From: Candidatus Paraluminiphilus aquimaris
GTDB lineage: Bacteria; Pseudomonadota; Gammaproteobacteria; Pseudomonadales; Halieaceae
Length of the DNA: 64,000 nt
Reading direction: 5' to 3'
NCBI RefSeq assembly: GCF_026230195.1
Contig: NZ_CP036501.1
Location: 1,798,001 to 1,862,000, forward strand
The notes beneath the pieces were generated by a model. The model searched no databases, was not told the origin of the DNA, and worked only from the letters and a program-made list of their open reading frames with translations. Numbering within the stretch: the stretch's first letter is position 1; each line of letters starts with the position of its first letter. The position numbers and the translations under genes were made by a program. Shown here piece by piece: positions 2,363 through 11,766 of the stretch.

Positions 2363-3613
2363 GTGAGTGCCGCCTACGCAGATATCAGTAAAACACCGCT
2401 CTGTGAGTTGGATGTGTCAGATCCGTTGCGCTTTGAAAATGACACGTGGCAACCGTTATTTGAGCGCTTGCGAGCAGAGTCGCCTGTGCACTATCAGGCG
2501 GACAGTCCAGCTGGACCTTTTTGGTCCATATCGCGATTCGAAGATATCGTAGAGATAGAGAAGAATACCGAGGTCTTTTCCTCGGAGCCCACAATCGCCA
2601 TTGTTGATCCACCGCCGGATCGTCGCTCTCCCATGTTCATCGCCATGGACCAGCCTGAGCACGACGTGCAGCGAAGAGCTGTCCAGCCGGTCGTCGCACC
2701 TAAGAATCTACAAGAGTTTGAAGCTCTGATCCGTAAACGCTCTGGGGAGGCCCTCGACGCATTGCCTGAGGGTGAAACCTTTGATTGGGTGGAATTGGTG
2801 TCGCGAAATCTCACAACGCAGATGTTAGCGACGCTTTTTGATTTTCCTTGGGAGCTGCGCCACAAGTTATCAGAGTGGTCAGATGCGGTGACCTCGGACG
2901 AGCGCATGACAGCGGGCCAGGGTTTGACACGGGATGAACGGATCGAGGTCATCATGGAGATCCTCGAGGTTTTTACAAGACTCTGGCACCAACGTAAAGA
3001 CGATGGTGTTGAGTCGTTTGACCTCATTCGGTTGCTCCAGCGAGACCCTCACACCGCTAACATGGTGGATGACCCCAAGAATTATGTTGGCAATCTGATG
3101 CTGTTGATTGTTGGCGGTAACGATACGACCCGTAACTCTATGTCTGGCGGAGTTCTATTTCTTAATGAAAATCCCGAGCAATTTCAGCGCGTTAAAGACG
3201 ATCACTCTCTGATATCGGCGATGGTATCTGAGATTATTCGCTATCAAACACCGCTGTCACACATGCGAAGAACACTCACACGAGATGTCGAGTTTCGGGG
3301 TCAGCAAATGAAGGCTGGTGACAAGGTCGTTCTCTGGTACTGCTCAGCGAATCGTGATGCGTCCGTAATAGAAAATGCCGACGCCTTTCAAATTGATCGC
3401 CAAAGCGTGAGAAACCATGCGTCTTTTGGGTTCGGTATTCATCGATGCATGGGGAATAGACTTGCAGAGATGCAGCTTCGTGTCGTCTGGGAAGAGGCAT
3501 TGAAGCGTTTTAGCGATATCAAATTGATGGCGCCACCCACTCGGCTTTGTCATAACTTTGTAAGGGGTTATTCCGCGATGCCGGTACAAGTCACTCGGTT
3601 ATCGAACGGATAG
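2363..3613 (+). CDS. Cytochrome P450, CYP153-like (alkane/fatty acid hydroxylase class)
   Basis: 416 residues from a GTG start just after the ferredoxin stop. I-helix oxygen-binding motif GGNDTTRN is at 251-258, the ExxR pair at Glu290/Arg293, and the heme-binding loop FGFGIHRCMGNR has its proximal Cys at 362. The stretches GGNDTTRNSMSGG and SHMRRTLTRD...GDKVVLWYCSANRD closely resemble CYP153 terminal alkane hydroxylases as remembered; no alignment was run. Class I P450s of this kind take electrons from the adjacent ferredoxin. Expected reaction is terminal or subterminal hydroxylation of alkanes, fatty acids or terpenoids. A second P450 lies at 57507-58895. Confidence 0.92.
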   Translation: MSAAYADISKTPLCELDVSDPLRFENDTWQPLFERLRAESPVHYQADSPAGPFWSISRFEDIVEIEKNTEVFSSEPTIAIVDPPPDRRSPMFIAMDQPEHDVQRRAVQPVVAPKNLQEFEALIRKRSGEALDALPEGETFDWVELVSRNLTTQMLATLFDFPWELRHKLSEWSDAVTSDERMTAGQGLTRDERIEVIMEILEVFTRLWHQRKDDGVESFDLIRLLQRDPHTANMVDDPKNYVGNLMLLIVGGNDTTRNSMSGGVLFLNENPEQFQRVKDDHSLISAMVSEIIRYQTPLSHMRRTLTRDVEFRGQQMKAGDKVVLWYCSANRDASVIENADAFQIDRQSVRNHASFGFGIHRCMGNRLAEMQLRVVWEEALKRFSDIKLMAPPTRLCHNFVRGYSAMPVQVTRLSNG

Positions 3614-6341: not shown

Positions 6342-7607
6342 ATGAATTTTGATATCCCGTTGGAAATACAACAGTTTCTCGATGAGGTGGATCGCTTTAT
6401 TGAGCGTGAAATCAAACCCTTGGAGGCCGCTGACGACAATATTCGGTTCTTCGATCATCGACGCGAGGACGCGCGAACCGATTGGGAACGGCAAGGCTTG
6501 CCTAATGAGGATTGGGAGGCGTTGCTGGCTGAGGCGAAACGTCGTGCGATTTCAGCCGGAATCTTTAGTTACCCCTTCCCAAGTGAACATGGCGGGCGGG
6601 ATGGTGGCAACTTAGGGATGGCCATCATTCGCGAACATCTGGCTGCAAAGGGGCTTGGTCTACACAACGATTTGCAAAATGAGCATTCAGTCGTGGGCAA
6701 TAACATTGGCCTATTATTGATGCTGGAATACGGGACGCCCGAGCAGCAGTCTGACTGGTTGCCCGGTCTGAAAAATGCGACGCGAGGTTTTGCCTTTGGT
6801 ATTACGGAGCCAGACCACGGCTCGGACGCGACCCATATGGAAACAGTGGCCCATCGCGATGGCGATGACTGGGTCATCAATGGTGTGAAGACGTGGAATA
6901 CCGGGGTTCACACTGCACACAGTGACATGGTGATGGCCCGGACCTCGGGCAATGCCGGTGACGCTGCCGGGATCACGGCCTTCATGGTGCCGATGGGTGC
7001 CCCTGGCGTAGAGGTTGAGGAGTACCTGTGGACGTTCAACATGCCTTCTGACCATGCTCGGGTTCGGTTTACCAATGTGCGCGTTCCCGACTCAGCCATC
7101 TTTGCCGGGGAGGGCAGAGGCCTTCAGGTGGTGCAGCATTTCTTTAACGAAAATCGAATTCGTCAGGCGGCCTCAAGCTTGGGAGCGGCCCAATATTGCG
7201 TCAATGAAGCCGTTGCTTATGCGAAAGAGCGTAAGCCCTTCGGTAAACCCTTGGCGAGTAACCAAGCGATTCAGTTTCCACTTGTGGACCTACAGGCTCG
7301 TTGTGAAATGTTGCGAGCGCTGATTCATAAAACAGCTTGGCTTATGGATCGCGATGGTGCCTTTTCGGTATCGGACAAAGTCTCTATCTGTAACTACCAG
7401 GCGAATCAGCTTTGCTGCGAGGCGGCGGACACGGCTATGCAAGTCCATGGCGGTATTGGTTACTCGCGATATAAGCCCTTTGAACACATTTACCGTCATC
7501 ACCGCCGGTATCGAATAACAGAGGGCGCAGACGAGATTCAAAAGCGAAGAGTTGCGGGCTATATGTTTGGCTTCATGGATCAACGTAAGCCTAAAGGCGT
7601 TAGTTGA
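6342..7607 (+). CDS. Acyl-CoA dehydrogenase family protein
   Basis: 421 residues, usual ACAD length. FAD/substrate motif ITEPDHGSDATHMET, the ERKPFGKPL segment, the AMQVHGGIGYSRY loop and ITEGADEIQ near the end are standard. Glu394 in that last motif matches the catalytic base of medium-chain acyl-CoA dehydrogenases, so normal alpha,beta-dehydrogenation is expected. The stop overlaps the TTG start of the kinase gene, so the two are translationally coupled. ACAD plus kinase pairing recalls human ACAD10/11 (fused) and Pseudomonas LvaC with LvaA/LvaB, which act on 4-hydroxyacyl-CoAs; the retained glutamate leaves ordinary beta-oxidation open. Confidence 0.92.
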   Translation: MNFDIPLEIQQFLDEVDRFIEREIKPLEAADDNIRFFDHRREDARTDWERQGLPNEDWEALLAEAKRRAISAGIFSYPFPSEHGGRDGGNLGMAIIREHLAAKGLGLHNDLQNEHSVVGNNIGLLLMLEYGTPEQQSDWLPGLKNATRGFAFGITEPDHGSDATHMETVAHRDGDDWVINGVKTWNTGVHTAHSDMVMARTSGNAGDAAGITAFMVPMGAPGVEVEEYLWTFNMPSDHARVRFTNVRVPDSAIFAGEGRGLQVVQHFFNENRIRQAASSLGAAQYCVNEAVAYAKERKPFGKPLASNQAIQFPLVDLQARCEMLRALIHKTAWLMDRDGAFSVSDKVSICNYQANQLCCEAADTAMQVHGGIGYSRYKPFEHIYRHHRRYRITEGADEIQKRRVAGYMFGFMDQRKPKGVS

Positions 7608-9004
7608 AAACCGTGGATCAAACGTTTGAGGAAAGTCTGTCGGCGCTCATTTCGCGCCATTTCGAAGGAGCGAAGCTGATCTCTTCAAGCCAGCTCACTG
7701 CCGGCGCATCACAGCAAACGTTTCGTATTACGATCGAAGGGAAGGGCGGCGATACGCAGGTCTTTGCGCTGCGTCGAGCGCAGCCTGGCTTGGCGTCATC
7801 CTCTTACGGACAGTTACCGCCTAGTGTAGAAGTCGAATTACTGCAACTAGCCGCTCATGGCGGTGTGCCCGTGCCCGGTATCGAGTATGTGCTGTGTCCC
7901 GGAGATGGTCTGGGCGACGGCTACATCATGGAATGGTTAGAGGGCGAGACCATGGGGCAGCGGATTGTAAAACGCCCTGAGCTGAGTGGTGCCAGAGCAT
8001 CATTAGCTTTTGACTGTGGTCAGGCGTTGGCGCGAATCCACGCCTTGTCTGTGCCTTGCTCTCTCGTTGAGCGGTTGCACAACGTCTCGCCCGAGGCCTT
8101 AGTGCGCGAGACTTGGGAGGCCTATATTGTGTTGGACACGCCACAACCGATGATCGACTTTACCGCTCAGTGGCTGCTCAGCAATGTTCCCGCTGATTTT
8201 GAGACGACGTTGGTTCACGGGGATTTCAGGAACGGTAATTTAATGGTAACGCCCGATGGCATAGGTGCTGTGCTTGATTGGGAGCTTTGCCACATGGGTG
8301 ACCCCATGCGAGACCTCGGTTGGCTGTGTGTCAATTCATGGCGATTTGGTAACCGATCTTTGCCTGTTGGGGGCTTTGGTAAGGTCGAGGATCTTATCGC
8401 GGGCTACGAATCGGAAACCGGCCAGCCGGTAGATCTCACGACACTGCGGTTCTGGGAGGTCTTCGGTTCGTTTTGGTGGTCAGTGACGACATTGGGTATG
8501 GCGAATACCTGGCGAAGTGGCGAGACACCGTCAGTGGAGCGGCCCGTTATTGGTCGACGCAGTAGCGAAGCGCAAATGGATTGCGTCCACCTCCTCATCC
8601 CGGGTGAGCTACCCGCCCACCCCGATAAGATAAGTGATGCAAATCTCCCATCTGTCAGTGAGATTATCCGATCGGTAAAGTCGCATTTGACTGAGCATGT
8701 TGGCGAAAAGCTCGAAGGGGCAGACCAATTTTTGATGCGTGTCGCGGTCAATTCACTCTCCATTGCAGAGCGCGAGCTTTCTTTCGCACCCGCTGCAGAG
8801 CGTGCCGAACTCGCCGGGTTGAAGTCGTTGTTTTCGGGGCTTGAAGGTAATGAGGACCTGGAGCAGCTAAGGTGGAATCTCGTGTCGGCGCTTCGGTCTA
8901 ACGAGCCGATGGATGTTGATATCCTCGGTGCACACCTTCGTCAAACAGTGGCTCACAGACTTTATATTGATCAGCCAAAATACTCGGCACTCACGAATTC
9001 ATGA
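7604..9004 (+). CDS. APH-family phosphotransferase fused to a DUF6285 (LvaB-like) domain
   Basis: 466 residues. Residues about 25-330 are an aminoglycoside phosphotransferase/choline kinase fold: catalytic loop HGDFRNGN at 205-212 (Asp207) and metal-binding LDWE with Asp225. This subgroup (ACAD10/11 N-terminus, LvaA) phosphorylates the hydroxyl of hydroxyacyl-CoAs. Residues about 347-460 (FLMRVAVNSLSIAEREL ... HRLYIDQPKY) resemble DUF6285, the small LvaB partner needed by LvaA in Pseudomonas levulinate catabolism. Both parts in one chain would be a natural kinase-partner fusion. The TTG start overlaps the ACAD stop (TTGA); a GTG three codons later is an alternative. Family assignment of the C-terminal domain is from memory, without an HMM search. 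Confidence 0.83.
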   Translation: MKTVDQTFEESLSALISRHFEGAKLISSSQLTAGASQQTFRITIEGKGGDTQVFALRRAQPGLASSSYGQLPPSVEVELLQLAAHGGVPVPGIEYVLCPGDGLGDGYIMEWLEGETMGQRIVKRPELSGARASLAFDCGQALARIHALSVPCSLVERLHNVSPEALVRETWEAYIVLDTPQPMIDFTAQWLLSNVPADFETTLVHGDFRNGNLMVTPDGIGAVLDWELCHMGDPMRDLGWLCVNSWRFGNRSLPVGGFGKVEDLIAGYESETGQPVDLTTLRFWEVFGSFWWSVTTLGMANTWRSGETPSVERPVIGRRSSEAQMDCVHLLIPGELPAHPDKISDANLPSVSEIIRSVKSHLTEHVGEKLEGADQFLMRVAVNSLSIAERELSFAPAAERAELAGLKSLFSGLEGNEDLEQLRWNLVSALRSNEPMDVDILGAHLRQTVAHRLYIDQPKYSALTNS

Positions 9005-9088
9005 GCGGATTTACCCTAGTCCGCGCCTTCGATAAGGCCTACTTTTTCGTTAGGTTTTTGTGGGGGAGTGTCCTAGACTTACGCCTGT

Positions 9089-9164
9089 GCCGTTGTAGCT
9101 CAGTCGGAAGAGCGTTTGCCTCCTAAGCGAAAGGTCGCAGGTTCGATCCCTGCCAGCGGCGCCA
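9089..9164 (+). tRNA. tRNA-Arg (anticodon CCT)
   Basis: 76 bases including encoded CCA. The acceptor GCCGTTG pairs with CAGCGGC, followed by discriminator G and CCA. Anticodon stem TTTGC/GCGAA encloses loop CTCCTAA, giving anticodon CCT for AGG codons. The T arm GCAGG-TTCGATC-CCTGC is intact. A TAGACT -10-like hexamer lies at 9074-9079, just upstream. Confidence 0.95.
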
Positions 9165-10611: not shown

Positions 10612-11766
10612 TTAAGCATTTAGCCAAGGAGAGGGGCTTTGCTGGAGATACTGTGCAACCGCGTCAAAATCACCACTAAAAACGACTCTGCGCTGCTTGG
10701 ACTTCAGCTGGTAGTCGTACATGGGGTCGTAATAGTCACGCAATAAGATCTCTATCCAGGCTTTATGTGTCTCGGAACGACCTAAACGATGCTCTGAGAT
10801 GGCTGTCTCTAGAAGCCCCGATAATTCCGAATACCTGACGCCGCCCAGACGCTTCTTGATGTTTTCCAAGCTGTTTCTTAGTGATGCAGCGAAAACCTCA
10901 AAAGTATGCTCATCATCGCCCGCGACTTTCACCAATTCACTGTGATTTTGAAGAATATAATTTTGCCAGGAGTGTTCCACACGTTGCGCTAAGCTTGCCT
11001 CGACGGTTATGACAGGTGCCTTGGCGATGCACTCTTGAAGCAGTATCGGGAGGGCGCAGCGACCAATAAGCCGACTTTCATCCTCTACCGCTACGGCCGA
11101 TGCATCAGATTTAATTGCCTTAAGAAAGGCAATTGCTATCGCATTTTCAAAATCAATCTGGCTGGGCTGCGGTGTAATTCGTTTACCAAAGGCACTGCCT
11201 CGGTGATTCGCCAAACCCTCTAGATCAATCGTTACGAGTCCCTGTGATGAGCCACAAGACTCCGCGCATTGATTCAGGAGTGCCGTTTTGGCGACACCTG
11301 TTCGGCCTGCTACCACGACAAGGTTTGATGCCTGTAACGACGCCGCGAAGCTGTCAATGAGAAATCGGCGTAATGCCTTGTAGCCACCCTCGATAATCGG
11401 TACGTGACAACCTCGCTCCGCCAGCCAAGCCTGCGTTGTTTGCGATCGCAAGCCGCCCCTGAAACAAAATAAAGCGGCCTCCGGTGCACTTTTTATGGCA
11501 CTGATCCACTGCTCAATGCGTGCTTCCTTCGCAGTACCCGTCACAAGTTCATGCCCGAGTGAAATGGCCGCTTCCTGCCCGCGTTCGGCGTAACAGGTGC
11601 CTACTTGTTCACGCTCTGAGTTACTCATAAGCGGAAGGTTGATTGCCGCAGGAAACGAGCCTTTTTCAAACTCAACCGGCGCACGCGTGTCAATGAGCAA
11701 GCGGTTCTCAGTAAAAAGGCTGCCGAATTCGGAGGCCAAAATGCGGCTTTGGGAGGAGCTAGGCAC
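10612..11766 (-). CDS. selU: tRNA 2-selenouridine synthase (MnmH)
   Basis: 384 residues. The rhodanese domain (about 1-130) contains DTRAPVEFEKGSFPAAINLP and the active-site loop LFCFRGGLRSQ with its Cys; the second half has a P-loop, VVAGRTGVAKTALLNQC. SelU replaces the 2-thio group of wobble uridine 34 in tRNA-Lys/Glu/Gln by selenium, using selenophosphate from SelD, via a geranylated intermediate. The GTG start overlaps the end of selD by eight bases and lacks its own ribosome site, so translational coupling is likely. This pair explains the need for selenophosphate without selenoproteins; no selA or selB is present in the window. Confidence 0.93.
   Translation of the reverse strand: MPSSSQSRILASEFGSLFTENRLLIDTRAPVEFEKGSFPAAINLPLMSNSEREQVGTCYAERGQEAAISLGHELVTGTAKEARIEQWISAIKSAPEAALFCFRGGLRSQTTQAWLAERGCHVPIIEGGYKALRRFLIDSFAASLQASNLVVVAGRTGVAKTALLNQCAESCGSSQGLVTIDLEGLANHRGSAFGKRITPQPSQIDFENAIAIAFLKAIKSDASAVAVEDESRLIGRCALPILLQECIAKAPVITVEASLAQRVEHSWQNYILQNHSELVKVAGDDEHTFEVFAASLRNSLENIKKRLGGVRYSELSGLLETAISEHRLGRSETHKAWIEILLRDYYDPMYDYQLKSKQRRVVFSGDFDAVAQYLQQSPSPWLNA

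Follow-up and report, generated by a model that had tools for sequence, protein, structure and literature searches.

A kinase-DUF6285 fusion gene overlapping a T2-clade acyl-CoA dehydrogenase gene in Candidatus Paraluminiphilus aquimaris: a candidate module for phosphorylation and elimination on hydroxyacyl-CoA

Introduction

Does the gene pair studied here remove hydroxyl groups from acyl-CoAs by way of a phosphate and, if so, is its reaction that of the known enzymes? The pair, an acyl-CoA dehydrogenase (ACAD) gene overlapping a kinase gene, is located in a stretch of 64,000 nucleotides of Candidatus Paraluminiphilus aquimaris (contig NZ_CP036501.1, positions 1,798,001 to 1,862,000), hereafter the window. 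The ATP-dependent phosphorylation of hydroxyacyl-CoA by ACAD10/ACAD11 and by LvaA is established. To our knowledge, the described cases use a single type of ACAD, and the enzymes (LvaA, ACAD10/11) have been assigned only recently. In the window, the kinase is joined in one chain to a DUF6285 domain and the ACAD belongs to another clade, T2, which is strongly tied to DUF6285 kinases. Our preferred reading is a second, uncharacterised kinase-ACAD module in which phosphorylation would be followed by elimination on a hydroxyacyl-CoA, the position of the hydroxyl being unsettled; we consider the case for this reading evenly balanced. The pair is composed of the following elements (aa, amino acids; ORF, open reading frame).

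6342..7607 (+): T2-clade ACAD, 421 aa (Pfam ACAD domains, residue signature, clade 100/100)
7521..7523 (+): codon of E394, the ACAD residue at the catalytic-base position, Asp753 in ACAD11 and Asp in LvaC types (alignment)
7604..9004 (+): kinase-DUF6285 fusion protein, 466 aa, TTG start (ORF, Pfam)
7691..8383 (+): APH-type kinase domain, Pfam residues 30-260 (PF01636, 2.6e-33)
8222..8239 (+): catalytic loop D207-N212, HGDFRNGN (8v3v alignment; identical in 32/32)
8708..8983 (+): DUF6285 (LvaB-like) domain, residues 369-460 (PF19802, 70.6 bits)

The stop of the ACAD gene and the start of the fusion gene share the four bases TTGA (ORFs 6342-7607 and 7604-9004), and the overlap from which the initial annotation had proposed translational coupling is thus confirmed.

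The fusion protein and its LvaB-like domain

The Pfam search detects APH (E 2.6e-33) at residues 30-260 of the fusion protein and DUF6285 (E 1.9e-19) at residues 369-460, the latter with 70.6 bits for a cut-off of 28.1. The C-terminal piece searched by itself gives 74.4 bits against DUF6285. A chance likeness is ruled out by the score of 70.6 bits against 28.1, which confirms the identity first suggested for this block, and the two Pfam domains support the proposal of LvaA-like and LvaB-like halves in one chain. The protein is the sole DUF6285 match (E at most 0.001) of the 2.72-Mb genome. The kinase motif residues H205, D207, N212, D225, W226 and E227 are identical in all 32 aligned fused homologues. 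D207 aligns with D220 of ACAD11 (8v3v), and the catalytic Asp and Asn of the APH-family kinases (D207, N212) are intact. By analogy with the established enzymes, the kinase of the window is likely to phosphorylate hydroxyacyl-CoA.

The AlphaFold2 model of the whole protein (32 fused homologues) displays a pLDDT of 91.6 and a pTM of 0.91. The kinase fold reaches approximately residue 335 and DUF6285 is modelled as a four-helix domain (residues 351-456). Modelled in isolation, the DUF6285 domain is poor (pLDDT 69.4), and Foldseek with this isolated model gave no match below E 0.46.

The relation of DUF6285 to LvaB is seen on a plasmid of Stutzerimonas stutzeri (locus L006) with an lva-like order: regulator, kinase, DUF6285, histidine phosphatase, ACAD, short-chain dehydrogenase/reductase (SDR) and acyl-CoA synthetase. 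The small protein in the LvaB place matches PF19802 with 77 bits. DUF6285 occupies this place and, judging by synteny, is LvaB; the window kinase thus has its LvaB partner. According to an excerpt of PMC6692424 on the work of Rand et al. (2017), growth on levulinate requires lvaB, and a pull-down with LvaA recovered LvaB; for that work we also draw on PMC11342911 and PMC12440821. No paper was found with the term DUF6285 in the open full-text literature.

The frequency of the fusion was surveyed with open-frame length as a proxy. DUF6285 is carried by 104 of 140 genomes of the same family; of its 105 matches there, 56 have an open frame no shorter than 380 aa, 48 one no longer than 260 aa and one a frame of 302 aa. 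In a phylum sample, DUF6285 was detected in 46 of 397 genomes, and 16 of the 49 distinct frames have at least 440 aa. With 56 of 105 family matches at fused length, the fusion is common and the idea of a rarity is ruled out; nor is it a sequencing artefact, since many relatives share it. On the kinase tree (49 rows), the fused and split states require five changes, gains and losses being counted alike, and all five are forced by well-supported branches.

The acyl-CoA dehydrogenase belongs to a distinct clade

In ACAD11, the 4-phosphate has been modelled as held by R626, H634 and R637 adjacent to the catalytic D753, and replacement of these four residues ablated or impaired the ACAD step (excerpt of PMC12440821). 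In the alignment, the window ACAD has Phe, Gln and Ser at the positions of R626, H634 and R637 and Glu394 at that of D753 (signature F/Q/S/E). The three phosphate ligands of LvaC, ACAD10 and ACAD11 are therefore missing, as is the Asp base. The FAD-proximal His (H597 of ACAD11), common to the LvaC types, is present as H238. Among the other 26 ACAD-like rows of the genome, an equivalent of H597 is found in the three LvaC-type rows and in L108 1379-2491, which has none of the remaining active-site residues; all further rows differ at this position.

The residues conserved in T2 are H238, F267, R272, Q275, S278 and E394, the T2 pocket being read from the alignment alone. F/Q/S/E is present in 18/18 T2 rows of the first comparison, alphaproteobacteria among them, in the haloarchaeal and Nocardia T2 rows, and in 80/80 named relatives (the 80 most similar to the window ACAD). 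One row with 26% identity and a different signature, tagged T2 by the script, was excluded from the T2 counts.

In a tree of 42 ACADs, from which seven second-subunit-like rows were omitted, T2 forms a single clade (100/100) whose sister group is the LvaC-type clade (93/85, a branch without a star), and the window ACAD lies outside the LvaC-type clade. F/Q/S/E in place of R/H/R/D and the separate clade rule out the identification of this ACAD as LvaC, and the likeness to LvaC and ACAD10/11 drawn in the initial annotation does not hold. With these residues at the key positions of ACAD11, the removal of a gamma-hydroxyl group that was also claimed is not established. Of the compact phosphorylate-and-dehydroxylate pathway, what stands is the kinase-LvaB chain coupled to an ACAD; the LvaC-type ACAD does not.

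Association of T2 with DUF6285 kinases

Contigs of named genomes were scanned for T2 peptide patterns, and the best 80 of at least 596 stretches encoding a relative were retained. The hosts include Halieaceae, Spongiibacter, Nocardia, Mycobacterium, Ilumatobacteraceae and Myxococcota, and many are metagenome-assembled genomes (MAGs). A fused kinase is near T2 in 38 of these 80 loci (including L140, where it lies 2.4 kb away on the opposite strand) and a split kinase with DUF6285 in 16, two of them below the Pfam cut-off. Four loci have a kinase cut by the contig end, with no DUF6285 visible, and 22 have no kinase near, four of these being at a contig edge. For 22/22 of the latter, DUF6285 is found elsewhere in the genome. 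The pairing of kinase and ACAD noted in the window is thus widely conserved. DUF6285 also exceeds the cut-off in 10 of 13 further host genomes of the 80.

The hidden Markov models (HMMs) for these locus scans were built in-house, with limits of 40 bits for the kinase (60 in one scan) and 15 bits for DUF6285. As the in-house DUF6285 HMM contained a Nocardia sequence, matches were tested again with Pfam, which gave 50.2 bits for Nocardia farcinica, 46.6 for Nocardia arthritidis and 59.7-74.2 for three Ilumatobacteraceae/Acidimicrobiaceae.

In the phylum sample of 397 genomes, T2 is present in 35, DUF6285 in 46 and both in 34. DUF6285 therefore occurs in 34/35 genomes with T2 versus 12/362 without (Fisher p 7e-38, the genomes being non-independent). 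In the sole exception, a kinase with a 491-aa open frame adjoins the T2 gene. Linkage alone is insufficient to explain this association, because in 11 of the 34 genomes the two do not lie within 5 kb of each other. In the family sample, 82 of 84 T2 genomes carry DUF6285, the other two being incomplete (66% and 71%), and 22 genomes have DUF6285 without T2.

Kinase phylogeny, Nocardia and haloarchaea

A clade of nine rows (100/100) unites kinases of lva-type operons; the window kinase falls outside it, among T2-linked kinases. Outside it, too, is a Thermus kinase adjacent to an LvaC-type ACAD (L093). On a plasmid of Nocardia farcinica, DUF6285 (50.2 bits), the kinase and T2 (75% identical) are consecutive. 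Three haloarchaeal plasmids carry T2 (59-60%), a protein of 157-159 aa and a kinase. This conserved protein has the position of DUF6285 beside the kinase:

L095, 10287-10766: conserved protein in DUF6285 position
L096, 10285-10758: conserved protein in DUF6285 position
L098, 7403-7882: conserved protein in DUF6285 position

Two of the three were tested against PF19802 and gave no match; the profile comparison with DUF6285 gave P 0.0018 and a probability of 14.6%. Acetoacetate decarboxylase and hydantoinase-family genes are near the pair on two of these plasmids, one of which also has an acetone carboxylase subunit; we record this as a lead only.

LvaC-type dehydrogenases beside other kinases

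Among 20 loci with a DUF6285 kinase and no adjoining T2, ten encode an ACAD whose pocket reads R, H, R and D, seven have no ACAD match in the stretch examined and three have other ACADs only. The complete pocket is kept in all 11 LvaC-type ACADs beside DUF6285 kinases (these ten loci and L006). A locus of the same order (L079, 7495-10271) encodes an LvaA-LvaB fusion of 487 aa (APH 118.7 bits, DUF6285 40.3 bits), which belongs to the lva-type kinase clade and whose adjoining ACAD has the complete LvaC pocket. A fused LvaA-LvaB beside a true LvaC-type ACAD, as pictured earlier for the window, thus exists in L079; in the window the ACAD is T2.

Three loci of the same bacterial family (L068, L069 and L070) have split DUF6285 kinases next to complete-pocket ACADs, so that both types of ACAD partner occur in this family. 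The kinases of these three loci form a separate clade (100/100) close to the T2-linked ones, a third grouping. In Variovorax (L005 5911-8527), the ACADs that accompany a DUF6285-type kinase pair match the signature of neither LvaC nor T2.

The genome of the window encodes two other ACADs with the full ACAD11 pocket (contig positions 100859-102106 and 1958347-1959567), which are other candidates for work on 4-hydroxyacyl-CoA. In a further ACAD (970916-972142), which lies approximately 3 kb from another kinase, a single pocket residue is missing.

Genomic neighbourhood

Three genes upstream of the pair, a cytochrome P450 had been proposed as the source of the substrates. Between it and the pair lie a DUF429 gene and, on the opposite strand, an amidohydrolase gene.

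2363-3613: cytochrome P450 (395 bits against the NCBIfam solanimycin P450 SolI, below its cut-off of 850 bits)
9025..9038 (+): terminator-like hairpin, 21 bases 3' of the fusion gene (consensus scan; weak)

A P450 match was found at 8 of 105 T2 loci, which span about 6 to 10 kb on each side (several are shorter); one match is close (89%, in a congener) and one more is at 53%. The link of the P450 to the pair was therefore rejected, and the proposed origin of the substrates finds no support in these 105 loci, nor in the intervening opposite-strand gene. In the window, the genes next to the pair include no lva regulator, CoA synthetase or phosphatase. Concerning the hairpin, the scan found 2 against 3.5 expected in shuffled sequences. 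A tRNA-Arg (CCT) is present at 9089-9164, 84 bases downstream of the fusion gene, and MnmH, the tRNA 2-selenouridine synthase, is encoded at 10612-11766 (-), where three NCBIfam models are exceeded at their cut-off.

Discussion

In the proposed mechanism, the fused protein would phosphorylate a hydroxyl group of an acyl-CoA at the expense of ATP, its DUF6285 half playing the part of LvaB within the same chain. The T2 flavoprotein, to which it is translationally coupled, would act on the product of the kinase, most likely by removing the phosphate, which would let the acyl chain enter beta-oxidation. Elimination by T2 is favoured because T2 is placed as sister to the LvaC types, has the FAD-proximal His in common with them and is strongly associated with the kinase; the known C4 form is disfavoured because of the Glu base and the absent phosphate ligands. 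The inferred substrate is a hydroxyacyl-CoA, on which T2 would act once it is phosphorylated, with the hydroxyl elsewhere than at C4 or not at C4 alone.

Several observations weigh against this reading. The association with the kinase is a dependence and says nothing of the order of the reactions, and the residues that hold the phosphate in the ACAD11 model are replaced in the window ACAD. The sister placement is below the starred level and comes from a small sample. The T2 label requires seven changes on the kinase tree, at least four of them forced, so the kinases are not cleanly sorted by ACAD partner. The three haloarchaeal kinases group with two outgroup paralogues from the genome of the window (95/98), apart from the DUF6285 kinases. 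DUF6285 over the cut-off was not found in three of the 13 further T2 genomes (two Mycobacterium and one MAG); in Mycobacterium, a small gene beside the kinase reaches 24.5 and 21.8 bits for a PF19802 cut-off of 28.1. Clustering of the neighbours of the 80 named loci (30% identity, 60% overlap) revealed no common gene besides the kinase, remote families being split at these values: the clusters contain the kinase at 45 loci, SDR at 19, enoyl-CoA hydratase at 9, AMP-ligase at 8 and DSBA at 8. No substrate is thus indicated by the neighbours.

Without the phosphate ligands and with Glu in place of Asp753, T2 could be an ordinary redox dehydrogenase acting at another step. In this alternative, which we regard as rather improbable, T2 would be an alpha,beta-dehydrogenase with a Glu base, a redox FAD and the electron transfer flavoprotein as acceptor, and the kinase would act on a hydroxyl at an earlier or later step of the pathway. 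Glu is found at the usual position of the ACAD base, and CoA ligase and enoyl-CoA hydratase genes are neighbours in Sulfitobacter and haloarchaea. Such a role accounts less well for the dependence of T2 on the kinase even where the two are unlinked (11/34 and 22/22 genomes), a dependence that one would hardly expect of a generic dehydrogenase, T2 being the sole family compared, and the nearest relatives of T2 in the tree are the eliminase types.

A gamma-dehydroxylation of 4-hydroxyacyl-CoA, with T2 as an analogue of LvaC that uses different residues, seems unlikely to us. The kinase-accessory pair is the same as in lva, and T2 and its LvaC-type sister clade share the His equivalent to H597. 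Against it, neither the Asp base nor any of the three phosphate ligands is present in any of the 80 named T2 proteins, the two complete-pocket ACADs of the same genome appear to cover the function, and some DUF6285 kinases of the same family adjoin complete-pocket ACADs (L068, L069, L070).

The solved structures nearest to the kinase part, after re-examination of the Foldseek matches, which cover residues 3-334 of the model, are near ties: 3dxp (Z 25.0), the 25-hydroxysteroid kinase (25-HSK; Z 24.3 and 23.6) and Rv3168 (3ats, Z 24.0). The 25-HSK structure 9ft5 (Z 24.3) superimposes over 318 residues with a root-mean-square deviation of 3.5. It is very improbable that, as these 25-HSK matches could suggest, the kinase acts on a small molecule other than an acyl-CoA (e.g. 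a terpenoid or sterol alcohol) with the ACAD at a later catabolic step, since 3dxp and 3ats are near ties with them, ACAD11 is closer in sequence than 25-HSK (1e-12 versus 7e-5) and the 25-HSK paper (PMC8449060), in the excerpt considered, describes the kinase gene as having no lyase candidate next to it and makes no mention of an acyl-CoA dehydrogenase.

Comparison with known systems

LvaA, LvaB and LvaC of Pseudomonas putida resemble the window in that an APH-type kinase with a DUF6285 partner is accompanied by an ACAD in the same operon. The window differs from them by joining the kinase and the LvaB part in a single chain and by an ACAD devoid of the phosphate pocket and the Asp base. In mammalian ACAD10 and ACAD11, kinase and ACAD also form a unit, and the catalytic Asp/Asn of the kinase and the His equivalent to H597 are kept in the window. 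However, the mammalian kinase is fused to the ACAD, whereas the window kinase is fused to DUF6285 and its ACAD is separate, with F/Q/S/E at R626/H634/R637/D753. The 25-HSK of Sterolibacterium denitrificans shares the kinase fold (9ft5, with 3dxp and 3ats as near ties); it phosphorylates an unreactive alcohol ahead of elimination, but its substrate is a steroid, and no adjoining lyase candidate and no ACAD are mentioned in the excerpted text (PMC8449060). The fused protein of L079 (487 aa) has the same order of kinase and DUF6285 in one chain as the window protein, and differs by its lva-type kinase clade and its complete-pocket ACAD. No description of the pairing of T2 with the kinase was found among the titles and abstracts listed by searches of open-licence PubMed Central articles.

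Significance

More widely, T2 and the DUF6285-linked kinases may constitute a second family of phosphate-activated dehydroxylases in Bacteria and possibly in Archaea, with a hydroxyl that is not at C4 or is on a branched tertiary carbon, a Glu base, a different phosphate site and a fusion that evolved repeatedly; we advance this extension tentatively and hold it to be somewhat doubtful as a whole. A known pair of kinase and accessory protein is here tied, in nearly all cases, to another ACAD family, one that is highly conserved. LvaB-like domains are tied to the kinase closely enough for repeated joining, and the role of LvaB can therefore be tested with a single polypeptide. The association predicts that many bacteria of sea and soil, Nocardia and perhaps haloarchaea have an uncharacterised acyl-CoA intermediate that would have to be activated at the expense of ATP.

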